IMG/VR virus record: IMGVR_UViG_3300032282_004353
Span: 1-49,681 of that record
From: a virus
Reading direction: 5' to 3' (one strand)
DNA length: 49,681 nt
Shown: positions 1,482-37,364 of the stretch, piece by piece
Position numbering within the stretch: the first letter of the stretch is position 1
Layout of the letters: the number at the start of each line of letters is the position of its first letter
Notes under the pieces: generated by a model
What the model was told of the DNA's origin: nothing
What the model saw: only the letters and a program-made list of their open reading frames with translations
Databases searched by the model: none
Position numbers and translations under genes: made by a program

Positions 1482-1791
1482 CAAGTTGATTGATCCTCAC
1501 TATAAAGTCATCAATCTTCTTTACTCGATCAGAACCATTCCATTTAATCATATCTTTCTCTGGATTCTTTTTGAGATTATTCAGAAATGGTAGTATCATT
1601 GCTCGAAGTTTCTCAAGTTTTTCGGTAGCAGTATCTACTTCTGCTGATAGTTCGGTTGAATCTGCAAATGTAAAGCCAAAATCATCTTCTTGTTTCATTT
1701 TATTAAGCTCTCTATTGTAATATTCACAGCCAGGTTCACATTCTTTTTGTAGTCCACACGGGCATCCACCACCATAATCATATTTGGCCAT
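1471..1791 (-). CDS. Conserved small cysteine-containing phage protein
   Basis: 106 residues. The N-terminus MAKYDYGGGCPCGLQKEC has four cysteines in about 20 residues (CPC...C...C), suggesting a small metal site; the rest is acidic and helical. I recall very similar N-termini in hypothetical proteins of T4-like cyanophages, but no function is known to me. Its start codon overlaps the last base of the gp43 C-terminal gene stop, so it is translated with the polymerase. Confidence 0.7.
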   Translation of the reverse strand: MAKYDYGGGCPCGLQKECEPGCEYYNRELNKMKQEDDFGFTFADSTELSAEVDTATEKLEKLRAMILPFLNNLKKNPEKDMIKWNGSDRVKKIDDFIVRINQLVDN

Positions 1792-4061
1792 TAACTAAAA
1801 AACCCTTCAAGTGTTGAACGTTTTTCAGTATCCCATCCAATAACATCTAGAATAGCCTTGATAGGATCTAGAAATGTTTTTTGAAATTGTGTTTCATAAT
1901 CAATATATTTGTCGAAGTTAAGTTCTAGTGGTAATTCATCTGGCGCAGAAATAACATGTTCACGAATAGGATTTGGTAATGTCAAATAAGAAAACCGAAT
2001 CTTATCACCATCGCCAATCAACTGATATTTGTCCTGTAGACCTTTTTTAATTATTAGATCATTATAAAGTAAAGCACCACGAACATGAATTGGTGTTCCC
2101 TTTGTATAAATTGAATGACGATCTTTATATTTGTCCATACCTTTCATACCTCGTGGAAAAGCAACCTCCTCAAAACCAAGTTTCATAAATTCATGTTTAA
2201 AATCAGCAATAAACTTCTGAAGTGTTTCCTCATCTTTATTCATGATAATAGATAAAGACTTTTTAATATTTGATCGACACACTTTTGGTGTAGAAGATCG
2301 AACTGCCTCAATACCCTGAATCTTGAGTTGTGGTTCAGAGAACTGAACACCCTCAATATTCCAGGCATTCATAATATAGTTTTTAGCACCTTTCCAAATT
2401 GCTTTGTCTGCAATTGTTTCACGCTTCATAAACATCTTTTGATCATATGAATGCATATAGTTTGCTAAATCGGTAAATGCTTTTTTAATAACATTCTGAA
2501 CTTTTGTATCACAGAATTTATCTAGTGCATCAACAATCTTTAAAGGATCATCAATACCTAATTCAGTAACAAGCGGATCCATATTAATATAAAGTGAGTC
2601 TGTATCGGAAGCAACAATATAATCTTTACCATCAGTTTTTAGAAGCTTATTCATATAGGTATTGATATATCGTTCTGCCCATTGAATAGTAAGCTGGCCT
2701 GATGAAGTAATTGCTTCAGCCATATCAAAATCAAACCAACGGAAATATTGATTAGATAGAGCGCCGTAAAAAGAGTTTAATTGAATTTTCTTAGCAAGTT
2801 GTAGATTGTGATATCGTGCTACATCATTGATATATTGTTTACGATTTGGGTCATTCTCAGATAATGTTTCAAGTTTCTTTTTGGACTCAAGCATCTTTTT
2901 CTTGTATTCTGCACGATCATTAAACATACGTTCCATGAGTGCTGGTGCAAAGCCTTGACGATCTTTTGAAAACTTTACACCATTTGCAGCAGATGAATAA
3001 CCATCATCTTCTACAACTGCATATCCATCAATAAGTGACTTTAGTTGAGGCCAATTTTGTTCACGCCCGATTTTTGTTTCGGGTGAAATATTATAATGAA
3101 TAATAAGATGTGGATATAGTGAAGTCAAGTCAAATGAAACAACCCAACGATAAAGACCAGGTTTTACTTCCTTGACATAACCACCCATGAGTGCCTCGTC
3201 ATTGCTTTTCTTTTTAAATTGAGGAATTACAATACAACGATCAAGAAGATAGTTATGTACAATAATATCCCAAGGCTTCACAGTTGCCATAGTATCAGCA
3301 TAGTTTACCTTAGCATCATACGCAAATGCCATGACAAGTTCAATGAAACCTAGTTTTTCCTCAAACCGATCAATCAGTGCTACATCTTGCACGTTATAAT
3401 CAAAAAACATTTCAGGATTCCGTTGATATAGATCATCAAGCGATGCATATCCTTGAGCCTTATAATCAACCTTCTTTTCACCTAGAACTACTTCTGCAAT
3501 ATTATCTAGTTTATAGCTTTCCTCATTACTAAATGAAAATTTCTTGTATAGTTGTAGATAATCTAGTACATTAATACCAGCAGGAGTGTAAGTTGTATTT
3601 TCCCTACCATGGATTTCAATCTTGCGTTCCTCAAGAATACCCCATGGAGATAGTTTCTTGGCTTGTTCATTACCCAATACATTTTTGATACGATTCACAA
3701 TATAAGGAATATCAAAGAACTCAATATTCCAACCAGTCAATACATCTGGTAGAAAACGACCAGATTGCCAAACATGGAGGAATTTTTCTAGTAGTTCATA
3801 CTCATCTTTACAAAGAAGATAAGTGATATTGTCTTCTTTTGGCTTATATGGCTTTAGACCAAATACTACTTTTTCACCACGACGTGAAATAGTAATAGCA
3901 GTAATTTCTTTATCTGCCGTTTCAATATTTGGAAATCCGCCAGTTTGCATATAACAAGAAGAAGGAATACTAACCCATTTTTGCTTTTCCTCGTCAAATA
4001 CCTCACAGTCATCTTTATATGATGATAGATCGTTTAAATTAATTTCAAACACATCGTACAT
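1791..4061 (-). CDS. 43: DNA polymerase gp43, C-terminal fragment (most of exonuclease plus polymerase domain)
   Basis: 756 residues of family B DNA polymerase. Residues 41 onward (GGFPNIETADKEITAITI) continue T4 gp43 immediately after its exonuclease I motif. Visible motifs are exonuclease TGWNIEFFDIPY and YNVQDVALID, polymerase A SFDLTSLYPHLI, B KKIQLNSFYGAL and C ASDTDSLYINMD. The catalytic DIE of Exo I is not here but in the separate N-terminal protein at 4960-5376. The first 40 residues (MYDVFEINLNDL...) do not resemble gp43 and look like a new N-terminus. It has its own Shine-Dalgarno (AGGA, 7 bases before ATG) and overlaps the 3' end of the HNH gene. Two polypeptides would have to assemble to give a proofreading polymerase. 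Confidence 0.93.
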   Translation of the reverse strand: MYDVFEINLNDLSSYKDDCEVFDEEKQKWVSIPSSCYMQTGGFPNIETADKEITAITISRRGEKVVFGLKPYKPKEDNITYLLCKDEYELLEKFLHVWQSGRFLPDVLTGWNIEFFDIPYIVNRIKNVLGNEQAKKLSPWGILEERKIEIHGRENTTYTPAGINVLDYLQLYKKFSFSNEESYKLDNIAEVVLGEKKVDYKAQGYASLDDLYQRNPEMFFDYNVQDVALIDRFEEKLGFIELVMAFAYDAKVNYADTMATVKPWDIIVHNYLLDRCIVIPQFKKKSNDEALMGGYVKEVKPGLYRWVVSFDLTSLYPHLIIHYNISPETKIGREQNWPQLKSLIDGYAVVEDDGYSSAANGVKFSKDRQGFAPALMERMFNDRAEYKKKMLESKKKLETLSENDPNRKQYINDVARYHNLQLAKKIQLNSFYGALSNQYFRWFDFDMAEAITSSGQLTIQWAERYINTYMNKLLKTDGKDYIVASDTDSLYINMDPLVTELGIDDPLKIVDALDKFCDTKVQNVIKKAFTDLANYMHSYDQKMFMKRETIADKAIWKGAKNYIMNAWNIEGVQFSEPQLKIQGIEAVRSSTPKVCRSNIKKSLSIIMNKDEETLQKFIADFKHEFMKLGFEEVAFPRGMKGMDKYKDRHSIYTKGTPIHVRGALLYNDLIIKKGLQDKYQLIGDGDKIRFSYLTLPNPIREHVISAPDELPLELNFDKYIDYETQFQKTFLDPIKAILDVIGWDTEKRSTLEGFFS

Positions 4062-24741: not shown

Positions 24742-24770
24742 TTTATATCATATATGTTAGTATGTGTCAA
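24742..24770 (-). promoter_or_regulatory. Sigma70-like promoter for the minus-strand tRNA group
   Basis: TTGACA (24765-24770), 17 bases, TATAAA (24742-24747) on the minus strand; overlaps the pstS stop. Confidence 0.78.
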
Positions 24771-25738
24771 TCGGTATTTAATGTCTTAAGTACTCGAGTC
24801 TTGACTTCTTGTGGTAGTGGAATGTATTCTAAAGAAATGGCTACTTCATCACCATGTTTATATCCCCATTCTAACCAAGAACTTACACTCTTGCGATTCT
24901 TACTATCCTTAGGAATCAAAATATATGTTGCAGACACAATGGGGTAACATGTATTACACGGTCTATTAATTACATCTGCTTCATTTGTATCAGACCAAGT
25001 AGCATGTGATGCTGCAGCATTAAAGGTTTCAGATTTTGCCGTCACCCAATGACCGGTTGCGGTTTTTAGTAATGCTGTAGGAATATTACCATTAGTTGCA
25101 AAAGCACTCTCTACATATCCGATAGAGCCGGTCATGCGCTTAACCGATGCAGCTACACCATCATTACCTCGAGCACCAGTTCCTACATTCCATTTAATAG
25201 ATACAGCTGGAGTAGAAAATGTCTTATCTTGTGAATGAAGATAATTTACAAATACGTAAGTAGTACCTGAACCATCAGCACGATAAATTGGTGCAATTGC
25301 TAGATTAGGTAGCTTTAAATCAGGATTATCAGAAACTAATCGTGAATCATTCCATTTTGTAATTTTACCGCTGTAAATATCAGCTAGATTCTGACCAGAA
25401 ATCTTTACAGTATTTGATTGAATACCTGGGATATTCACAACTACAACAACTGAGCCCATGACTGATGGGACTTGAATAAGATTATTTTGTGTTAGTCGTT
25501 CAATATTCATTGGAGCATCAGAAGCACCAAAGTCTACAGTACGATTAATAATTTGATTTTGTCCACCACCAGACCCAATAGCCTGATAGTTAACAATAAA
25601 GCCTGATGTTTTAGATAGTTCAGCCCATTTAGAATAGAGTGGTGCAGGAAAAGTAGCGCCCGCACCACTAATTGATTGAGCATGTACTGTTGTTGTTAGT
25701 ACTGTGGCTGTTAGAAGCCCATACATAATATTTTTCAT
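24767..25738 (-). CDS. pstS: Phosphate-binding protein PstS
   Basis: 323 residues with a signal peptide (MKNIMYGLLTATVLTTTVHAQ). The mature N-terminus SISGAGATFPAPLYSKWAEL is diagnostic for PstS, with the phosphate-binding GSGGGQNQI, DFGASDAPM and RADGSGTTYVF motifs. Periplasmic high-affinity phosphate binding feeds the host Pst ABC transporter; T4-like cyanophages carry pstS to help phosphate-starved hosts. No PstABC genes in the window. Starts 3 bases after rpiB ends, so the two are an operon read from the promoter at 26225-26253. Confidence 0.96.
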   Translation of the reverse strand: MKNIMYGLLTATVLTTTVHAQSISGAGATFPAPLYSKWAELSKTSGFIVNYQAIGSGGGQNQIINRTVDFGASDAPMNIERLTQNNLIQVPSVMGSVVVVVNIPGIQSNTVKISGQNLADIYSGKITKWNDSRLVSDNPDLKLPNLAIAPIYRADGSGTTYVFVNYLHSQDKTFSTPAVSIKWNVGTGARGNDGVAASVKRMTGSIGYVESAFATNGNIPTALLKTATGHWVTAKSETFNAAASHATWSDTNEADVINRPCNTCYPIVSATYILIPKDSKNRKSVSSWLEWGYKHGDEVAISLEYIPLPQEVKTRVLKTLNTD

Positions 25739-28825: not shown

Positions 28826-29479
28826 TTAGAAAGTAGATGATGCTTCCACTGCAATCCAATAAGTGGCTTCAGTACCAACAAATTGTGAAATACCTTTGGA
28901 AGAAATCATCAGTTGATAATCGCCATCCATAAGCTTTAGATTCTCTGAACGGAATACTGCACGGAATACCTTATCGGTTTCTGCCACAACAATGCTATAT
29001 TCATCGGCTGATGGATTCTTAACATCAACAGCTTGAAGCATAATATTTGAACCATCACCAACAACTGCAAGTTCTGGTAGACCAAGAATATTCATAGCCT
29101 TAGTGACATCTTGAATATCCTTATTAGTTAGAAAACAATCTACATCTACTGATGGTAGCTTAATTTCCTTTTCAGGTGGTGCAAGGATAACAGATGGATC
29201 GGCATAATGATATGTATTGCTCTTTTTACCGGATGAAATACGCACCGCAGAAGTACCAAACTCTAAATCAGGATCATCAAATAGAGTCATAGTAGAAATA
29301 AATCGAGCAAGATTATAGATTGCAATTACATTTGTAAATTCATCTGGGCAAGTTGCCCGAGCCATAATGGTTTTGTTGGTTGAAATAGTAGCAATGGTAT
29401 TCCCAGGCTTCAGCACAATAGATGGATTAATTGTACTGAAATTCTTGAGAATATTGATAGTTCGTGCACTTAGTTTCAT
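28826..29479 (-). CDS. 45: Sliding clamp gp45
   Basis: 217 residues. The beginning (MKLSARTINILKNFSTINPSIVL) and the closing strands (LMISSKGISQFVGTEATYWIAVE) match T4 gp45; length is close to its 228. A trimeric ring that holds gp43 on DNA and, in T4, activates late transcription with gp33/gp55. Promoter at 29514-29542. Confidence 0.95.
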   Translation of the reverse strand: MKLSARTINILKNFSTINPSIVLKPGNTIATISTNKTIMARATCPDEFTNVIAIYNLARFISTMTLFDDPDLEFGTSAVRISSGKKSNTYHYADPSVILAPPEKEIKLPSVDVDCFLTNKDIQDVTKAMNILGLPELAVVGDGSNIMLQAVDVKNPSADEYSIVVAETDKVFRAVFRSENLKLMDGDYQLMISSKGISQFVGTEATYWIAVEASSTF

Positions 29480-29545: not shown

Positions 29546-29938
29546 AAATCTAAAGATTTAAAGACATATTGTTCTTGGCAGTATGAAATTGCTAAAAAAG
29601 CCGCAAAACATAGTATGATGGGTAAAAATAATAATTTCTACGGTAAAAAACATAGTGAAGAAAATTTAAATAAAATGAGAGCAGGTCAAAAAAGACATAT
29701 TGAAAAGAATGGTAGACCTAAACATACCAAAGAAACAAAAGAAAAATTACGAGTAAAACATACAGGCAAAAAAGCACCAGAAAGTTTTGCATATAATTTA
29801 AAAAAATATTATGAAGAAAACGATGTTAAATGGTATAATAATGGTACAGTTGCAAAAATGATTGCTAAAGGTCAACAAATACCGGAAGGATTTGTTAGAG
29901 GCAGATTAATGAAGAATAAGAAATTAGAGGGGAACTAG
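29546..29938 (+). pseudogene. Remnant of a NUMOD3-type homing endonuclease
   Basis: The frame is open from just after a TAG at 29543 with no start codon until ATGATG at 29615, yet the upstream codons (SKDLKTYCSWQYEIAKKAAKH) continue the same helical, Lys-rich style. The rest is two NUMOD3-like units (NNNFYGKKHSEENLNKM and RPKHTKETKEKLRVKHTGKKAPE) and a KWYNNG motif, the C-terminal DNA-binding part of GIY-YIG/HNH homing enzymes. The catalytic domain is missing. The 107-residue form from 29615 may still be translated. Confidence 0.7.
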
Positions 29939-29952
29939 TTCCCCTCTTTTTT
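29926..29952 (+). terminator. Rho-independent terminator
   Basis: Perfect 22-bp palindrome, half-site AGAGGGGAACT (29926-29936), followed by TTTTTTA on the plus strand. Stop codon of the homing remnant lies inside. Confidence 0.85.
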
Positions 29953-30796
29953 ATTTGTTCTTTTTTAACATTGCTGGATCAGCCGTGGCAGGTGCACCAA
30001 TAGATGCTAGATCCGCTAGTGATCCACCAAAAATATAGGTACCGACATGACTAAGTTTCATCCACGGGCAATACCAAATCTTTCCACCAGCTTTGATTAG
30101 CTTTTGACAGAACCAATAATCCTCAGAGAGATATCTCTTGGAGTCAGGATCAATTTCAGCTTGAAAATATTGCATAATCTCACGAGATCCGTCGAAATGT
30201 TCGGTTCGAACATGATCTGGTTTATAAGAATATCCGGGATAAGCCGTATTAAATTTTTCAAAAGCTGAACGGCGAGTCATCATAAAACCAGTACCAACTT
30301 CAGATACTTCTACTGGTTCATCAATACGAATAGTACCATTACCAGCTTTAGGATTGAATACATAATCACCAACATACTTTTCTAGTACATTAGCATCATC
30401 ATCTGCAATACCCTTGTCGACTGCCAGTTTGATCTTTTCCCAAGAGATAGTCTTCTTTGGATATGGACCTGCCAACACATCATATTCTGAGTCATCTGAT
30501 TGTAATGCCATCATAGCAACAATATCTCGTGGATCAAAACCAATATCGGAATCAATGAACATCATGTGAGTGCAATCAGAGCGCATAAATTCATCAACAC
30601 AATAGTTTCTAGCACGAGTAATAAGAGACTCGTTGAAAAGAAAATATGATCTTAGTTCTAGACCATTTGCAGCAAACATTGCTGTCAAATCAGCTACAGA
30701 CTTTGTAAAAAGACCAGCGCACATCCCGCCGTACATAGGAGCAGCAAGGAAGAGTTTACGCTTCCTTAGTACATCCATTTCAATTTTAATTTCCAT
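29951..30796 (-). CDS. GT-A-fold glycosyltransferase-like protein
   Basis: 281 residues (start at 30796; MDVLRKRK at residue 8 is an alternative). KLFLAAPMYGGMC, SLITRARNYCVDEFM, THMMFIDSDIGFDP (DxD metal/nucleotide-sugar motif, about residue 80), YDVLAGPYPKK, VGTGFMMTRRSAFEKF and YLSEDYWFCQK then LSHVGTYIFGG are the layout of phage GT-A glycosyltransferases. The acceptor is unknown. It is the first gene downstream of DUF3310 and the DNA-modification-like block, so transfer of a sugar to hydroxymethylated DNA is an option; virion or surface glycosylation is another. Confidence 0.78.
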   Translation of the reverse strand: MEIKIEMDVLRKRKLFLAAPMYGGMCAGLFTKSVADLTAMFAANGLELRSYFLFNESLITRARNYCVDEFMRSDCTHMMFIDSDIGFDPRDIVAMMALQSDDSEYDVLAGPYPKKTISWEKIKLAVDKGIADDDANVLEKYVGDYVFNPKAGNGTIRIDEPVEVSEVGTGFMMTRRSAFEKFNTAYPGYSYKPDHVRTEHFDGSREIMQYFQAEIDPDSKRYLSEDYWFCQKLIKAGGKIWYCPWMKLSHVGTYIFGGSLADLASIGAPATADPAMLKKNK

Positions 30797-31098
30797 TATG
30801 TATTCACCTTATTTTTATAATGTTCAATATAAAGACAAAGAAGAACGTAATGAAGTGTTTTCATTAAATCATCTTTATTTTTACCGTTCTTTTTGCCATA
30901 ACGCATGAGATATTTAATAGCAGTATCCCGAGAAGTAGTGGAAGCAGTACCCATGGCTTCCCAGACATCAAACGTCTCTAGGTCTTCAGCCTTGTAATGC
31001 TCACCATATGTCCTATCAATATAGGCTTTAAGATCAGCAATAATCTGATCCTCATTATATTTATACACTATTTTTTTACTTGTGTCAATCATCATCAC
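30796..31098 (-). CDS. DUF3310-like protein
   Basis: 100 residues. EHYKAEDLETFDVWEAMG followed by TAIKYLMRYGKKNGKNKDDLMKTLHYVLLCLYI matches DUF3310, a helical family often linked to nucleotide kinases in phages. A promoter with combined early and late elements lies inside its first codons. One base separates its stop from the glycosyltransferase start. Confidence 0.75.
   Translation of the reverse strand: MMMIDTSKKIVYKYNEDQIIADLKAYIDRTYGEHYKAEDLETFDVWEAMGTASTTSRDTAIKYLMRYGKKNGKNKDDLMKTLHYVLLCLYIEHYKNKVNT
31058..31088 (-). promoter_or_regulatory. Overlapping early/late promoter inside the DUF3310 gene
   Basis: TTGACA (31083-31088), 17 bases, TATAAATA (31058-31065) on the minus strand. It lies within codons 4-14, so it would serve an internally started product or the downstream glycosyltransferase. 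Confidence 0.55.
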
Positions 31099-31099
31099 C

Positions 31100-32329
31100 T
31101 CAATTCAAAAAGTCAATTAGAGTCTTTTGCCTAGTGTTTACTATTGGATACTCGATAGTATGATTGTAGTTCATTTGTAAAGAGTAGAACTGGTCTACCC
31201 ACTGGCGCCTATCTTCTAGAGCTTCAAATACTTCTTCTGCCATATCGCGGGCAGTGCTAAACGGAACGTTTTGACAAATATGATTTACGTTTTTCTTGGG
31301 ATTAAGAAGCTCAAAGTCTCCTGGAAGCCCCATGATAGACATAGCTTCTCGATAAGTTATGTATCGGTCTTCATCTGGATGAGTTAAACACCCGGGATAG
31401 TGACCTACAAATGCGCCGATATAGTTTTTCGGGATGATAGTTCCGCGCCGCATGATGTTCTGTCCAGCTTTAAGCTTAGCGTCTCTACGCTCACACTTTA
31501 CAGCCTCAGACTCATAGCCCTTTTTACGAAGCCAGTTGATTAACTGTGTGTATGTAATATTGTTGCGTTCTATAAATGATAACACATCATTGCTCCCAAT
31601 CCCCATGGCTTCCATCTTCTCATGACTGAATGTACGATGATCGATGCCGCCGTACAACTCTTCGAGGATATAGCGATAGTACGGGTCATGCGATGGAGTC
31701 TTATGATTGATTACTTCCATCTGGCTGTTGTGCTTAGCGGCGTCACGAATGACGTCTTCGATCTTTGGATGTCCGCGATTATACCAATCAAACACTGGAA
31801 CTTTTCCATTCTCCCAGAAGAAATAAAACGAGCGAGAGCGAACTTGAGCCGTTCCATGTAGAAGAGACTTAGTTCGATATATTGACATTGAGTAACCGTA
31901 CTTTTTACCAATTGCAATGAGCTGAGTACGAATATCAAATCCTATCTTGCTAGCAAATCCAGGAGCATTCTCACCCCAGAATACCTTTGGCTTAAGGTAA
32001 CCAAGCACATATTCAGCCGTCTTAATCATCCACTGGTTGTTCTTGTTGTCAGTGCCAAATCCATGAGAGAGCTGAGATAGTCCTGCGCATGGACAGGTAG
32101 TGTTGACGATGTCTACTTTAGAATGAGGGTTTTCGCCGCGATCAACGTAGTAATATGGAAGATTAACATCATACTTATACTTGTAGTAGTTAAGCAAGTG
32201 AGACTCGTTGTCTTGGAAGCCTTCATAAGTCAGAAGATACTCAGGCGGTGCTCCAGCATGGTCATGCTGGGCTAAAGTCATTCCCCCAATAAGAGGTACT
32301 ATAGAAGCATGTGTATACTTATTACCCAT
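31100..32329 (-). CDS. Cytosine-C5 DNA methyltransferase-like enzyme with divergent SAM motif
   Basis: 409 residues. C5-MTase motifs in order: IV NTTCPCAGLSQLSHG (Pro-Cys 80-81, nucleophile), VI FWGENAPGF (Glu-Asn 120-121), VIII AQVRSRSFYFFW (QxRxR 162-166), a target-recognition region about 180-310, IX ITYREAMSIMGLPGDF and X QNVPFSTARDM. Motif I, usually DLFAGIGG, is SIVPLIGGMTLA, losing the first Gly and aromatic. It may methylate cytosine, or use the covalent C6 adduct for another reaction at C5. TAATG-type overlap with the SGNH gene; probably one operon with 32329-36162. Confidence 0.85.
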   Translation of the reverse strand: MGNKYTHASIVPLIGGMTLAQHDHAGAPPEYLLTYEGFQDNESHLLNYYKYKYDVNLPYYYVDRGENPHSKVDIVNTTCPCAGLSQLSHGFGTDNKNNQWMIKTAEYVLGYLKPKVFWGENAPGFASKIGFDIRTQLIAIGKKYGYSMSIYRTKSLLHGTAQVRSRSFYFFWENGKVPVFDWYNRGHPKIEDVIRDAAKHNSQMEVINHKTPSHDPYYRYILEELYGGIDHRTFSHEKMEAMGIGSNDVLSFIERNNITYTQLINWLRKKGYESEAVKCERRDAKLKAGQNIMRRGTIIPKNYIGAFVGHYPGCLTHPDEDRYITYREAMSIMGLPGDFELLNPKKNVNHICQNVPFSTARDMAEEVFEALEDRRQWVDQFYSLQMNYNHTIEYPIVNTRQKTLIDFLN

Positions 32330-33435
32330 TACATAAACCTTTCTAGATTACTATTAGTTTTTTCTTTAGCAACTTTCTTTAAAAAAACTTCATTCCACTT
32401 TTTTCCAGTCCAGTGCGGATAGCTCATCCTAGATAAGTGAACAGACCTCTTATATTCCATATGGCTGAAGTCTAGTTGTCCTTTGTCGTTCAAGAGATAG
32501 TTAGTCCACTTTTTGAAGTAAAGTCCGTTAGAAGTGCAAAGCTTTTCGCATAGTTTTCCAAATTGTTCTCTAGCAGCATTACGATCAGACCAAGAGCCCC
32601 AAAAGCCGCGATTATTGTACATCCCAGTTTTAGGGATGATTCGAGACTCATCCTCGATAGGAAGGAGCTCGCAGATTGTGATCTTCTTGACTCTGGTTAG
32701 AGTCTTACGAAGCTCGATGGCTTGCTTAACATACTCGGTTACCAATTCTTCTAAAACTACTCGTTGGTCAGACTGGCGGCACAGATGGTGCCTGACGTCA
32801 ATGTTTCCAAAATAGAGTTCTATCTCCTCTGCCTCAATGCTAGTCCCGACATACGGCTCGGTAACGAAATTCAAGAGCCCTTTTTTGAGAGCTCCGAACA
32901 GAGTCTTAAATGGAATTGTATTTACTGACCATCCTGGACGATACATGCTTATATCATGGCTATCCCCAACCGTGATTTTGCTGGTAAGATACGGGTGCTT
33001 GACTATTTTTGCTTTCTTCTGTATAGAAAGTAAGTTATCAAAATCTATTCGAAGAAAATCTTCTAGTATAGAGCAATTAGCCTCGCGCGATAGTCTAATC
33101 TTCTTGCTAAGAAGATAATGATAGTCTGGAATATCGTGGCACAGAGAGATAACTTCTCCCTTGAAGAAAGAAATATTTTTAATGTTACTTGCGTAAGGAA
33201 ATTTATCCATACCACCATAGAGATTAAGAGAATTTGACCAATCATTTCCATGGTAGATGTATAGTCTATCAAACTCATTGAAGTCATCGATCATCTTAGC
33301 TCCAATGTCAATGACCACCTCTTCCTCTCCTTTCTCATGAATCATATCTCCATATATGACTCCCTGAGCTCCCCGGTGGCTGGAAAAGATAGAAGATATA
33401 GGAATAAATGGAGCAGCAACAGCAGATCTAATCAT
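32329..33435 (-). CDS. SGNH/GDSL-hydrolase-like protein in the modification block
   Basis: 368 residues. KITVGDSHDISMYRPG (GDSH, residues 157-160) and YFGNIDVRHHLC (residues 208-219) match blocks I and III of SGNH enzymes, and a late MEYKRSVHLSRMSYPHW could supply the Asp/Glu-His pair. The N-terminal 150 residues (AQGVIYGDMIHEKGEEEVVIDIGAKM) look like a separate alpha/beta domain of unknown family. SGNH proteins hydrolyse or transfer acyl groups on sugars. Overlaps the methyltransferase gene by 1 base and the next small gene by 4. Confidence 0.6.
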   Translation of the reverse strand: MIRSAVAAPFIPISSIFSSHRGAQGVIYGDMIHEKGEEEVVIDIGAKMIDDFNEFDRLYIYHGNDWSNSLNLYGGMDKFPYASNIKNISFFKGEVISLCHDIPDYHYLLSKKIRLSREANCSILEDFLRIDFDNLLSIQKKAKIVKHPYLTSKITVGDSHDISMYRPGWSVNTIPFKTLFGALKKGLLNFVTEPYVGTSIEAEEIELYFGNIDVRHHLCRQSDQRVVLEELVTEYVKQAIELRKTLTRVKKITICELLPIEDESRIIPKTGMYNNRGFWGSWSDRNAAREQFGKLCEKLCTSNGLYFKKWTNYLLNDKGQLDFSHMEYKRSVHLSRMSYPHWTGKKWNEVFLKKVAKEKTNSNLERFM

Positions 33436-33671
33436 GTTTGATTCTTTCTTCGATAGAAGAGATCAAAGCCGTAGAGCACAGAGTTGCTTTTAACATCAAA
33501 CATCTCCCTGTTGCTTCCTTTGTTAAAGAAGCCGTGATTTGGCTCAGCTCTAACTAGCTCAAACTGCTTCTCAATCTTCTTATTGTAGCTCTCGTCAAAC
33601 TTAAAGTTTACGTAGTTTTTTCGACACTCGTTAACCATTGGTTTTGTCAGCCGCATCGCCTGGGCGTACAT
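33432..33671 (-). CDS. Small basic hypothetical protein
   Basis: 79 residues (MYAQAMRLTKPMVNECRKNY...FYRRKNQT), 15 basic residues, no domain recognised. AAGGG lies 6 bases before ATG. Its first 41 bases overlap, in another frame, a 22-codon ORF at 33631-33699. If that ORF's start is the true one and a -1/+1 shift occurs near GTGTATGTACGCC, the product would be MDLKKFKGV joined to YAQAMRL. Confidence 0.55.
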   Translation of the reverse strand: MYAQAMRLTKPMVNECRKNYVNFKFDESYNKKIEKQFELVRAEPNHGFFNKGSNREMFDVKSNSVLYGFDLFYRRKNQT

Positions 33672-33699
33672 ACACGCCCTTAAACTTCTTTAGATCCAT
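33631..33699 (-). CDS. Overlapping 22-codon ORF (possible true start of the next gene)
   Basis: MDLKKFKGVYVRPGDAADKTNG, with AAGGTGTG 9 bases upstream and placed directly after the aGPT-PPlase-like gene. It has a better Shine-Dalgarno spacing than many genes here but is unusually short; it may be a leader peptide, or the 5' part of a frameshifted 33432 gene. Confidence 0.35.
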   Translation of the reverse strand: MDLKKFKGVYVRPGDAADKTNG

Positions 33700-33715
33700 G
33701 ATATAACACACCTTT

Positions 33716-34981
33716 TCAATGAAAAAAATTAATAAGTGACGATTGTGCAGAACTGCTAACTTCTGTAGAAATTGGAGCCTGAGCTCTGTTGGACGCCATG
33801 GGTAGAGAAGTTCTGACGCGGTCGAACACATCGTACTGGCAACACGCTATCTCTACTCCGAACGTAGTGAAGCAACCAAGCTCACTGGCCTCTGTTAGGT
33901 GCTTCACGTCTCTTTCTGAGTGTATCCCGAAAAAGTTTTGCTGGTCGTCTCTAATGGCGAGAATCATCTTCATGGTCGTTCTAGTATTTATGGGGAGCTC
34001 GGGCCATAGCCTGGCTAGAGTCCTGCACGCCCCTGGACCAGCAACCACGTAGTCAGCGTTCTCGTTAAGGTCACCGTGAGTCAATCTCGAGTCGGCTTTC
34101 TTGAGAAGACTCCATTGGTATCTAGTTGCCGGAGCCTCAATCAAGCCAGCGGCTCCGATACCAGGCATCCTGCACAGGTTGGACGAGAAGTGGTATCCGT
34201 AGTAGTTACCGATGCCTGGATAGGACGTCAGTTTCTCGAACGAGCCCCGCATGTCGGGCTTCTTAGAGTAGAAGGACACTAGGTCTTCGCGCATGCTAGC
34301 AACCCAGTGTATCATGTCAGAAGAGCGCATCTTCCCGGCGCGCGAAGACTGACCTGCTTCTACTACTCCCGGAACTCCTCGGCAGTCGATCGGCGACGGG
34401 TTAGACTTAGAATACCTAGAAGCGGCCGTCTGAAGGCTAGTTCTAAGCTCGGTAGTTCCCCAGATGCGAGCCTTGTGAAACTTAGCTAATTCAATATTCT
34501 TAGTAACTGTGTAAGCGTAGTTATCGTCGACATCGTATCTCTCAAAGTCTACATATGGCAAGTCTGTCTTAGAACTTCCTGGAACTCCGGCTCTACCAGT
34601 AATGATTTCCAGAGTCTTGGACGGTCCGTAAAACTTGACCAAAGCAGAGTTAAGAAGCTTGTTAACGAAAGACACGCTAGCATCATAGTAAAGATTAGCA
34701 TTAAGCCATATGATCTCGTCGTGAAAAGACCTGTTTGGGTGGAAGTATGGAACAGGCTTACCTTCGACTACAAAGCCGTAACCAAAGACGTCTCTGTGAG
34801 CTTCTTGGTAAAAGTCTTTGACGTACTGCTCAAACGTCGTACACTGACCACTAACACGAACTGTCCACTCACGACGATTGAACTCGCGGATGAACTTACC
34901 TAGGTCGAGGCAAACTTTCTTGTCAGCTTGAGCTAAAAGCTGACAAGAGGCAGCGGCAAGAACATCTTCGGTAGAACGCAT
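33716..34981 (-). CDS. aGPT-PPlase / HMUDK-helical-domain-like protein (DNA base hypermodification)
   Basis: 421 residues. The central-to-C-terminal signature is LTSYPGIGNYYGYHFSSNL, then NENADYVVAGPGACRTLARL and FGVEIACCQYDVFDRVR, the order seen in the helical DNA-glycosylase-like family named alpha-glutamyl/putrescinyl-thymine pyrophosphorylase (aGPT-PPlase) and the helical domain of 5-hmdU DNA kinases. No Walker A P-loop is present, so it is not a complete hmdU kinase. Family members act on hydroxymethylated, activated bases in DNA. GC content is visibly higher than elsewhere. Stop of the MIPS gene overlaps its start. Confidence 0.65.
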   Translation of the reverse strand: MRSTEDVLAAASCQLLAQADKKVCLDLGKFIREFNRREWTVRVSGQCTTFEQYVKDFYQEAHRDVFGYGFVVEGKPVPYFHPNRSFHDEIIWLNANLYYDASVSFVNKLLNSALVKFYGPSKTLEIITGRAGVPGSSKTDLPYVDFERYDVDDNYAYTVTKNIELAKFHKARIWGTTELRTSLQTAASRYSKSNPSPIDCRGVPGVVEAGQSSRAGKMRSSDMIHWVASMREDLVSFYSKKPDMRGSFEKLTSYPGIGNYYGYHFSSNLCRMPGIGAAGLIEAPATRYQWSLLKKADSRLTHGDLNENADYVVAGPGACRTLARLWPELPINTRTTMKMILAIRDDQQNFFGIHSERDVKHLTEASELGCFTTFGVEIACCQYDVFDRVRTSLPMASNRAQAPISTEVSSSAQSSLINFFH

Positions 34982-36162
34982 TATTCAGCCCAGCCGCAGC
35001 CGATTCGAAGACGATTGTTCTTTTCAGTTACTGAAGTCCACTGACGATTAGATAACGCCTTACACTCATTGTAAGCGTCATTAATCATCATCTGGCTAGG
35101 TGGAGTTTTTTGTGTTGCAGCAGATGGGCCATGCAAAGAACCTATCATCCCCATCTCATGGGCTACCTTAAGATAACGAATAGCATCAATAACTACACCA
35201 GCTGAATTAGGTGAGTCTTGAACGGACAAGCGAGCATCAAATACCACGGGAGCACCGCCAAAACCCTCAGCTTCAATTCGAAAGTGAGCAATCTTATTAT
35301 CGCCATGATAAGGAATATAGCTTGAAGGTCCTGCATAGATGCCATTCTTTGGCACAGGAATGTTGCGAATATCATTCTGTGAACGTATAACATTTTCCTT
35401 ACTGATTTTCTTAGACTTTAATCGAGACTGGTCCATCATATTCAGGAAGTCGGTGTTGCCGCCGTGGTTTGTCTGTTCATGAAATTTGACCTTCATGCCA
35501 CGATTGAAGAAAAGCTCTTGAAGAGCCTGGGACATGATCGATGCTCCAAGTTGAGAACGCATGTCATCGCCGATAGCTGGTATTCCAGCATTGCGTAGTC
35601 GCTTCTCCCAGTATGGGTCGGATACAATGAATACCGGAATACAGTTAACAAACGGAATCTTAGCTTCCAAACAAGCTTCTACATAAAAACGAGTTGCAGT
35701 CTCTGAACCGACTGGAAGGTAGTTAAGAAGGATGTCGACCTTGTATTTATGAAGATCATTGATCACGTCAGACATAGTTGGCTCAGGATCATGAGTAACT
35801 CGAAAGCTCTCATCTTCCGGCATTGTAAGCATATGTTGAGCTACGCCATCATAAAGAGCTCCTCGCTTTACAATGGCTTTACCAGCTCCTACATCATTTA
35901 GCCAATCAGCCGCAACTTTATTGTCAAGGATGTTCATGGCGCAGTTAGGCTTAGCGTAGATAGCCTCACTTAGATCGCGGCCAACCTTACGGGGGTCAAC
36001 ATCATAAGCCAGTACAAACTCAATGTCACTAGCAGTGTAGCTACCAATACTAGTAAAAGCTAGGCCATCGCAGCTATTAGAGTGAGAGTAGAGGGCAACA
36101 CCTTCTACGAGTGATTTTGCGCAGTTACCGACGCCAACAATTGCTACACGTATTTTTTTCAT
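34981..36162 (-). CDS. ino1: myo-Inositol-1-phosphate synthase (Ino1, actinobacterial/archaeal type)
   Basis: 393 residues. IRVAIVGVGNCAKSLVEGV (NAD site), DIEFVLAYDVDPRKVGRDLSEAI, DILLNYLPVGSETATRFYV, FVNCIPVFIVSDPYW, IPAIGDDMRSQLGAS, LKSKKISKENV (active-site lysines), and VQDSPNSAGVVIDAIRYLK follow Mycobacterium-type Ino1 throughout. Converts glucose 6-phosphate to inositol phosphate by an NAD-dependent oxidation/aldol/reduction. Uncommon in phages; embedded in the modification-like operon, overlapping the aGPT-PPlase-like gene by 1 base. Most likely supplies an inositol-type building block. Confidence 0.9.
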   Translation of the reverse strand: MKKIRVAIVGVGNCAKSLVEGVALYSHSNSCDGLAFTSIGSYTASDIEFVLAYDVDPRKVGRDLSEAIYAKPNCAMNILDNKVAADWLNDVGAGKAIVKRGALYDGVAQHMLTMPEDESFRVTHDPEPTMSDVINDLHKYKVDILLNYLPVGSETATRFYVEACLEAKIPFVNCIPVFIVSDPYWEKRLRNAGIPAIGDDMRSQLGASIMSQALQELFFNRGMKVKFHEQTNHGGNTDFLNMMDQSRLKSKKISKENVIRSQNDIRNIPVPKNGIYAGPSSYIPYHGDNKIAHFRIEAEGFGGAPVVFDARLSVQDSPNSAGVVIDAIRYLKVAHEMGMIGSLHGPSAATQKTPPSQMMINDAYNECKALSNRQWTSVTEKNNRLRIGCGWAE

Positions 36163-36267: not shown

Positions 36268-36711
36268 TTATAAAGAGTAATACTCTACACCAGCTTCTGC
36301 AAACATCTCTTTAGTCTCTAGGCCCATGCCCAGCCATTTCTGAGAAACTTCATTGGGGTAACGCATGAATACACGCTTGATACCAACTTGGATGATACCT
36401 TTAGCGCACTCTGAACATACTGGCAGACCATGAACATATAAGTCAGCGCCATTAAGACTGACACCATTGAGAGTCGCATTATAAATACAATTCATCTCGC
36501 CATGGACCATGAACTTATACTTGGTCTCGCGAGTCTCAAGTCTGTCTTGATAGTCTTTAATACCACGTGGAAAGCCATTGTAGCCTGTAGCTAGTATTTG
36601 TCGACGATCACCAACTGCTACCGCTCCAATTTTTGAGGATGGATCTTTAGACCATCCGGCAATATGCTCAGCCATTTTTAAAAAGTTATCGTGCCACTTA
36701 TCACTCATCAT
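36268..36711 (-). CDS. cd: dCMP deaminase
   Basis: 147 residues. FMVHGEMNCIYNA (zinc His, catalytic Glu) and GLPVCSECAKGII (Cys pair) with KDPSSKIGAVAVGDRRQILATGYNGFPRGI are those of T4 Cd. Converts dCMP to dUMP for dTMP synthesis. ATGA overlap with the gp42 gene, so the two compete for dCMP and are made together. Confidence 0.92.
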   Translation of the reverse strand: MMSDKWHDNFLKMAEHIAGWSKDPSSKIGAVAVGDRRQILATGYNGFPRGIKDYQDRLETRETKYKFMVHGEMNCIYNATLNGVSLNGADLYVHGLPVCSECAKGIIQVGIKRVFMRYPNEVSQKWLGMGLETKEMFAEAGVEYYSL

Positions 36712-37364
36712 TTCACCAAGTTAAAGTTTCGTTCATAAACATGAAGAGACCCGACATTCCAATAAATGATACCGGGAGAGACATCTAAATCATATGATAG
36801 CATTTTTAGTACATATTCATTCCAAGCATAGTCATTTCTATAGCCATAAAAGACATCATTGCTGCGCATTTGAACAATAGCATGTAATGCTTGATCTCTT
36901 ATAACATATTGTACTGCATTTGTACACATAAAATCAGACATACCATCATGACAATAATCTACCCACATAGTTGGTCGTGTATAAATCATAGTAGCTCGCC
37001 TAGAAGTAGGCTTTTGCTTAAGCTCACGCAAGACATTGTTGTATTGGTCACCATTTTCATGTGACCAAATACACCATCCATAGTTAGAGTTAATACGTCC
37101 ATCTGGTGTAGCTACTTGTTTCCAGACAGCTGGTGTTTCACCTGGAATATCATTTACATTGAGAGACATTGATTTATACCACTCAATTTCACGCTCAATA
37201 TAAGAATGGTTAGGTTTACCAAAGATAGAAGGTTCGTCTGCCACAAAAGAAGCATTTACTATCTCTAGTAATTTAACACCAGATTTATCTTCTACATAAA
37301 ATTCATTTGCGAGGAGCCGCTTGAACTCCTCGCGAATCATATTTACGTTATTACAAACTATCAC
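36708..37364 (-). CDS. 42: dCMP hydroxymethylase gp42
   Basis: 218 residues with a GTG start at 37364; an ATG at 37340 (MIREEFKRLL) is an alternative. NASFVADEPSIFGKPNHSYI, REIEWYKSMSLNVNDIPGETP, INSNYGWCIWS, RRATMIYTRPTMW, GMSDFMCTNAVQYVIRD (catalytic Cys) and MRSNDVFYGYRNDYAW follow T4 gp42 closely. The Asp in RNDYAW replaces the Asn of thymidylate synthases and makes the enzyme dCMP-specific. It makes 5-hydroxymethyl-dCMP, so phage DNA is predicted to carry hmC or a derivative. Confidence 0.94.
   Translation of the reverse strand: MIVCNNVNMIREEFKRLLANEFYVEDKSGVKLLEIVNASFVADEPSIFGKPNHSYIEREIEWYKSMSLNVNDIPGETPAVWKQVATPDGRINSNYGWCIWSHENGDQYNNVLRELKQKPTSRRATMIYTRPTMWVDYCHDGMSDFMCTNAVQYVIRDQALHAIVQMRSNDVFYGYRNDYAWNEYVLKMLSYDLDVSPGIIYWNVGSLHVYERNFNLVK

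Follow-up and report, generated by a model that had tools for sequence, protein, structure and literature searches.

An inositol-phosphate synthase gene in a DNA-modification cluster

The window, by which we mean the whole stretch of 49,681 nt analysed here (positions 1 to 49,681 of IMGVR_UViG_3300032282_004353), is a T4-like virus record. The features that concern us lie on its minus strand:

36708–37364 (minus): dCMP hydroxymethylase (HMase), T4 gp42 ortholog; 1b49 at 2.9e-81; dCMP-specific Asp (RNDYAW)
36268–36711 (minus): dCMP deaminase
34981–36162 (minus): myo-inositol-phosphate synthase (MIPS/Ino1), 393 aa; PF01658 at 1.4e-26; 1gr0 at 1.3e-81; catalytic lysines kept
33716–34981 (minus): K421, HMUDK-helical-domain protein, 421 aa; PF18723 and fold model; C-terminal tail SSLINFFH
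33432–33831 (minus): remnant of an FkbM-family methyltransferase gene with a frameshift and a large internal deletion
32329–33435 (minus): X368, SGNH-fold protein, 368 aa; invariant GDSH, GNIDxRHH and H333; Foldseek, re-alignment and conservation
31100–32329 (minus): C5-cytosine DNA methyltransferase homolog; PF00145 at 4.1e-16; C-terminal tail TLIDFLN
30796–31098 (minus): DUF3310 protein; PF11753 at 9.1e-9
29951–30796 (minus): glycosyltransferase-like protein; phrog_1574
28826–29479 (minus): gp45 sliding clamp; PF09116 at 1e-15; phrog_223
1791–4061 (minus): gp43-like DNA polymerase, C-terminus STLEGFFS; homology to the Moby DNA polymerase

The reading frame at 34981–36162 is complete, with an ATG start, 393 codons and zero internal stops. 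Its match to Pfam Inos-1-P_synth (PF01658) scores 93.2 bits against a curated cut-off of 27, and comparison with Ino1 structures returned Mycobacterium tuberculosis (Mtb) Ino1 (1gr0) as the closest solved structure, matched nearly full-length over residues 3–359 at about 44% identity. A preliminary description of this DNA had read an NAD site and intact KSKKISK lysines in the protein, and alignment with Mtb Ino1 bore this out. The GxGNC NAD motif is present, the SKKISK lysines K251/K252/K255 together with K290 and K352 correspond to K248/K249/K252, K284 and K346 of Mtb Ino1, and aspartates D200/D238/D288/D316 match as well. The NAD motif, lysines and aspartates are also conserved across diverse phage homologs, and none of the catalytic lysines was missing from the alignment. 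By sequence, the gene encodes a MIPS that has kept its catalytic residues, and the product is plausibly active; family membership and the intact active site imply that it would convert glucose 6-phosphate to myo-inositol 3-phosphate.

The dCMP deaminase and gp42 ortholog genes lie immediately upstream of MIPS, and the MIPS stop codon overlaps the ATG of K421 by one base (TAATG). After K421, the cluster runs through X368, the C5-cytosine methyltransferase homolog, the DUF3310 gene and the glycosyltransferase-like gene, which is followed by a terminator-like hairpin (29926–29947). The upper part of the FkbM remnant overlaps the K421 gene; an intact 243-aa FkbM methyltransferase is encoded in L006, the closest relative. 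In the C5-methyltransferase homolog, the PC, ENA and QxRxR motifs are invariant across the family alignment. The CmoX carboxymethyltransferases are marked by an Arg at the HhaI Asn304 position (PMC12783734), and assignment to CmoX was rejected on our motif reading, which places N354, invariant in the family, at that position. The glycosyltransferase-like protein has a counterpart with 66% identity in Stenotrophomonas phage DLP6; relatives also occur in Cr30 and Sinorhizobium phages, many of which lack MIPS. Elsewhere in the window, 24767–25738 encodes a PstS-like phosphate-binding protein (PBP_like_2 4.7e-32, phrog_5385).

The protein at 36708–37364 matched dCMP hydroxymethylase 1b49 at 2.9e-81, compared to about 1e-9 for thymidylate synthases, and carries Asp at the base-selecting position. 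The far stronger gp42 match and the dCMP-specific Asp led us to reject thymidylate synthase and dUMP hydroxymethylase as assignments. The RNDYAW motif is kept in K421-type phages, and an ND motif with the base-selecting Asp is found in nearly all HMase sequences of the collected loci. Since the phage encodes a gp42 ortholog with the dCMP-specific Asp, its DNA should contain 5-hydroxymethylcytosine (hmC). Of 20 MIPS-phage records, 12 contained an HMase-family gene, and each of these was of the K421 type; the gene was not found in the types with TET and amino acid:DNA transferase (ADDT) or with deazaguanine enzymes, or in two K421-type fragments. TET can form the hydroxymethyl group on DNA itself.

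All 31 of 31 K421 family members matched PF18723, the HMUDK helical domain (best 3.7e-15), with the window protein alone scoring 24.7 bits against a cut-off of 25; a kinase domain was not found among the Pfam matches of these 31 members. The K421 model is all-helical (pLDDT 91). After an Aeromonas phage homolog, the nearest viral models include the SP10 5-hmdU DNA kinase (2.8e-4) and aGPT-Pplase proteins. Re-alignment to solved structures placed helix-hairpin-helix (HhH) DNA glycosylases in the top nine positions, at middling Z scores of 4.7 to 7.1. Foldseek of K421 against the PDB returned zero significant matches, so the glycosylase-like match rests on the structural re-alignment and the viral models. 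K421 is a candidate for an enzyme that acts on hydroxymethylated bases in DNA. Homology to ADDT (PF18724) was not demonstrated, the similarity being below significance (hhalign probability 16.8%), and the two chemistries may therefore differ. The X368 model (pLDDT 92) has an SGNH fold by Foldseek (4.7e-8) and by structural re-alignment (Z 15.9). S159 and H333 are invariant in 39/39 members and N211 is present in 37/39; the usual SGNH DxxH aspartate is not at its usual place. Neither modelled fold by itself establishes the reaction of K421 or X368.

Gene context of MIPS in viruses and cells

Four queries (MIPS, K421, X368 and a HAD protein found beside MIPS in relatives) yielded about 320 viral loci, of which many overlap, and 80 cellular MIPS loci served as the control set. 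Viral loci were counted as the matches listed for each query, at most 80 per query, and many of the contigs are related. The K421-queried loci are biased by design, whereas the MIPS- and HAD-queried sets are unbiased towards any partner. Among the loci listed for MIPS queries, 85/88 contained DNA-hypermodification enzymes, compared to 0/80 for these families near cellular MIPS (Fisher p 5e-45, a value that overstates independence because the loci are partly related). The partners were of three types: K421 with X368 and dCMP hydroxymethylase chemistry (58/88), ADDT, usually with a TET dioxygenase (19/88), and the deazaguanine enzymes QueC/DpdA/QueE (8/88). These types are mutually exclusive and were never mixed in one viral locus. 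The remaining 3/88 loci showed no partner, and the contig ends near MIPS in 3/3 of them. MIPS in turn was present in 69/73 of the loci listed for K421 and in 76/80 of those listed for the HAD protein. DNA decoration had been one of several roles offered in the preliminary description, and gene context strongly favours it.

A HAD-phosphatase-like protein of roughly 130 aa accompanies viral MIPS nearly always. In the S126 family, to which the HAD proteins of relatives belong, motif residues D6/D8, T30, K72 and D92/D93 are invariant or nearly so. The family matched phrog_415 polynucleotide kinase (1.6e-6) and, weakly, Pfam HAD families, and a profile search of the PDB gave zero matches. A HAD phosphatase gene was not found anywhere in the 49.7-kb window, which is a partial record. 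A canonical IMPase was rejected as the phosphatase, because 20 MIPS-phage records held no IMPase-family gene. Taken together, the sequences suggest that MIPS and the HAD protein form a portable supply module common to three chemistries, with K421 as its partner in the hmC type.

Loci retrieved with X368 often lack MIPS and K421 yet encode HMase, which indicates that X368 is not specific to inositol and belongs more generally to hmC chemistry. Such hmC phages with X368 and without K421 or MIPS include L357:2230-5474, L363:2696-5788 and L401:3929-5976, where up to three recurrent families (about 400, 300 and 340 aa) lie between HMase and X368. A Pfam search assigned zero families to these intervening genes; they perhaps direct a different decoration of hmC. 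At L001:11207-15693, L024, L031, L041, L081 and L299, QueC/DpdA/QueE genes lie beside MIPS, which in most cases is accompanied by the HAD protein, and 7-deazaguanine in the DNA of these phages may be conjugated to inositol or a cyclitol.

In Aeromonas phages 44RR2.8t and AS4-type, X368 and K421 are fused into a protein of about 800 aa, and MIPS was not found anywhere in these genomes. Immediately upstream of the fusion lies a gene for a vSGLT-like Na+/solute symporter (L246:6307-7830 in 44RR2.8t; L248:4323-5882 in AS4). At what we take to be the sugar-contact positions of vSGLT, the 44RR-type symporter differs at three. Phage phiAS4 has X368 without K421 and no annotated symporter at that place. 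A simple reading of these sequences is that the 44RR-type phages would import a polyol instead of making it.

T4-family proteins bind the gp45 clamp by a C-terminal tail of the kind seen in the window DNA polymerase, and this STLEGFFS tail is of the same motif type as SSLINFFH of K421 and TLIDFLN of the C5-methyltransferase homolog. In nonredundant sets, clamp-type tails were present in 24/52 K421, 32/65 X368, 23/37 C5-methyltransferase and 11/21 TET proteins, seldom in ADDT (3/30), in 0–1 of 99 HAD proteins, and in none of the MIPS (0/54), HMase (0/57) or glycosyltransferase-like (0/29) proteins. The tails thus appear to sort the cluster, independently of annotation, into DNA-acting enzymes and metabolite makers, and we propose that K421, X368 and the C5-methyltransferase homolog dock on the gp45 clamp.

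Descent of the viral MIPS

The preliminary description had called this MIPS actinobacterial in type. As a statement of resemblance this stands; as a statement of lineage it does not. In a tree of 99 MIPS sequences (42 viral; midpoint rooted for drawing, with bootstrap values not fully settled), one viral clan with 100/100 support holds 41/42 viral sequences, and Mtb Ino1 and other actinobacterial Ino1 proteins fall in the cellular clan. The phylogeny proposed as a way to find the donor lineage thus gave no actinobacterial grouping, and the tree rules out a recent actinobacterial transfer. Moreover, the window MIPS scored 316.8 bits against the 638-bit cut-off of TIGR03450, the NCBIfam mycothiol_INO1 equivalog. 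Its top cellular matches are from Bacteroidota, at about 56% identity compared to 44% for Mtb. Mtb Ino1 shares fold family, NAD motif, and catalytic lysines and aspartates with the window MIPS and acts in lipid and mycothiol pathways, whereas the window protein belongs to a separate viral clan and sits in a DNA-modification cluster.

The only cellular members inside the viral clan are Bacteroidota (Pedobacter/Dyadobacter) and one MAG. The nesting of chromosomal Bacteroidota MIPS (L167-L175, Pedobacter, Dyadobacter) within this clan suggests phage-to-host transfer or the reverse. The MIPS and K421 genes are richer in GC (0.44–0.49) than the window on average (0.36), consistent with import. A human-gut phage record (L003:6310-7605) carries a distant MIPS that lies outside the usual context of the viral clan and is about 20% identical to the window protein. 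Partner type switches many times along the MIPS tree, which implies that the module is portable and argues for function instead of one frozen arrangement.

Orthologous viral MIPS occur in the Menderavirus phages (Moby, IME-SM1, Ps15) and in Caulobacter phage Cr30, at 54% and 45% identity, respectively, in both cases beside a HAD-phosphatase-like gene. Their partners differ from the K421 and X368 of the window, being deazaguanine/DpdA genes in Moby and TET, ADDT and TAGT in Cr30. In these phages, MIPS is annotated merely as an inositol-P synthase, and phage MIPS have been reported as bacteria-like acquired genes with no function given (PMC9025141).

A proposed route to inositol on phage DNA

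We consider it likely that MIPS acts as the supply enzyme for DNA hypermodification by the phage, in which inositol or inositol phosphate is attached to hmC by K421 and X368. From the gene identities, the conserved residues, the near-obligate linkage, the three exclusive chemistries and the confinement of clamp-type tails to DNA-acting proteins, we infer the substrate, linkage, product, order of steps and benefit as follows. MIPS would convert host glucose 6-phosphate to myo-inositol 3-phosphate, from which the neighbouring HAD phosphatase of most relatives would release free myo-inositol; in the window phage, dephosphorylation would depend on the host or on a gene lying beyond the 49.7 kb. 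Meanwhile, the gp42 ortholog would make 5-hydroxymethyl-dCMP, and hmC would be built into phage DNA. K421 with X368, both docked on the clamp by their C-terminal tails, would then couple inositol, or its phosphate, to hmC at the 5-hydroxymethyl group, through an ether or a phosphodiester. The FkbM methyltransferase of relatives, possibly by O-methylation, and glycosyltransferases may elaborate the inositol group further, and the modification would protect phage DNA from host nucleases. A wider version of this proposal, to which we give an even chance, is that the MIPS and HAD module places myo-inositol or its phosphate on phage DNA across hmC, the hydroxymethyl-pyrimidines of the ADDT/TET type, and 7-deazaguanine.

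The proposed pathway shares with the T4 glucosyl-hmC system (gp42 with AGT/BGT) a gp42 ortholog for hm-dCMP and a hexose-sized group on hmC. It differs in that T4 uses UDP-glucose transferases, whereas the window encodes de novo inositol synthesis with K421 and an SGNH protein. The proposed conjugate would be isobaric with glucosyl-hmC and might be taken for it, since inositol adds a hexose mass. With the thymine hypermodifications of SP10, ViI, M6 and PhiW-14, which employ a 5-hmdU DNA kinase and an amino acid:DNA transferase, the pathway would have in common that a hydroxymethyl pyrimidine is elaborated after replication; K421 is in the HMUDK-helical family, and ADDT occurs in sister MIPS clusters. 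In contrast, those phages modify hmU, where K421-type phages would modify hmC, the P-loop domain of the kinase was not found among Pfam matches of K421, and the nucleophile there is an amino acid or polyamine, where we propose a polyol. In PhiW-14, pyrophosphorylated hydroxymethyluracil in DNA is an intermediate from which putrescine displaces the pyrophosphate (PMC5977210). Phage TET/TAGT clusters bring TET, glycosyltransferases and MIPS together in one relative type; the window lacks TET, and its hydroxymethyl group would be added at the nucleotide stage.

K421 could instead link a different cyclitol, or inositol in phosphorylated form. It is unlikely, in our judgement, that a drifted synthase makes a different cyclitol phosphate, which is then put on DNA so that the group is not inositol. 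The MIPS family does include 6k96, a five-membered cyclitol phosphate synthase that uses another hexose phosphate and is the second-best solved match to the window MIPS (E 1.1e-47), and the viral clan is divergent; but the window protein is nearer to true Ino1 (278 compared to 166 bits), and its catalytic and NAD residues are as in Ino1.

We think it quite improbable that MIPS is an auxiliary metabolic gene, serving inositol lipids, an osmolyte or carbon supply, with DNA-modification neighbours by coincidence. The description of phage MIPS as bacteria-like acquired genes without function (PMC9025141) is in keeping with such a role. Against it, viral MIPS is linked near-invariantly to DNA-modification genes and cellular MIPS never (0/80), and the MIPS stop overlaps the K421 start. 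The 20 MIPS-phage records also contain no IMPase-family gene and no CDP-alcohol phosphatidyltransferase (0/20, compared to 14/14 control genomes positive). This lack of a PI-synthase-type enzyme in the 20 records led us to set aside an inositol-lipid role as unlikely, as the preliminary description had already judged it. Least probable is that inositol is destined for something other than DNA, such as the capsid, tRNA or a surface glycan, with a common precursor pathway accounting for the linkage. Glycosyltransferases and Que/TGT-type genes able to act on other targets do occur in the clusters, but the TET, ADDT, HMase, HMUDK-helical and C5-methyltransferase proteins come from families that work on nucleotides or DNA, and several of them carry the polymerase-type clamp tail.

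We know of no report of inositol attached to DNA. In the literature, phage MIPS is annotated and we found no link to DNA modification, with a prior proposal possible in papers on TET clusters or thymine hypermodification. If MIPS-derived inositol is attached to hmC, a gene that isolated phages carry under an annotation but without an explanation would gain a role, and a base conjugate in DNA derived from a polyol, and not from a sugar, amino acid or polyamine, is predicted. The proposal also points to a supply module and candidate transferases, in an arrangement where one metabolite module would fit three DNA chemistries, and isolated carriers include Cr30, Menderavirus and presumably phages of the Aeromonas 44RR group.
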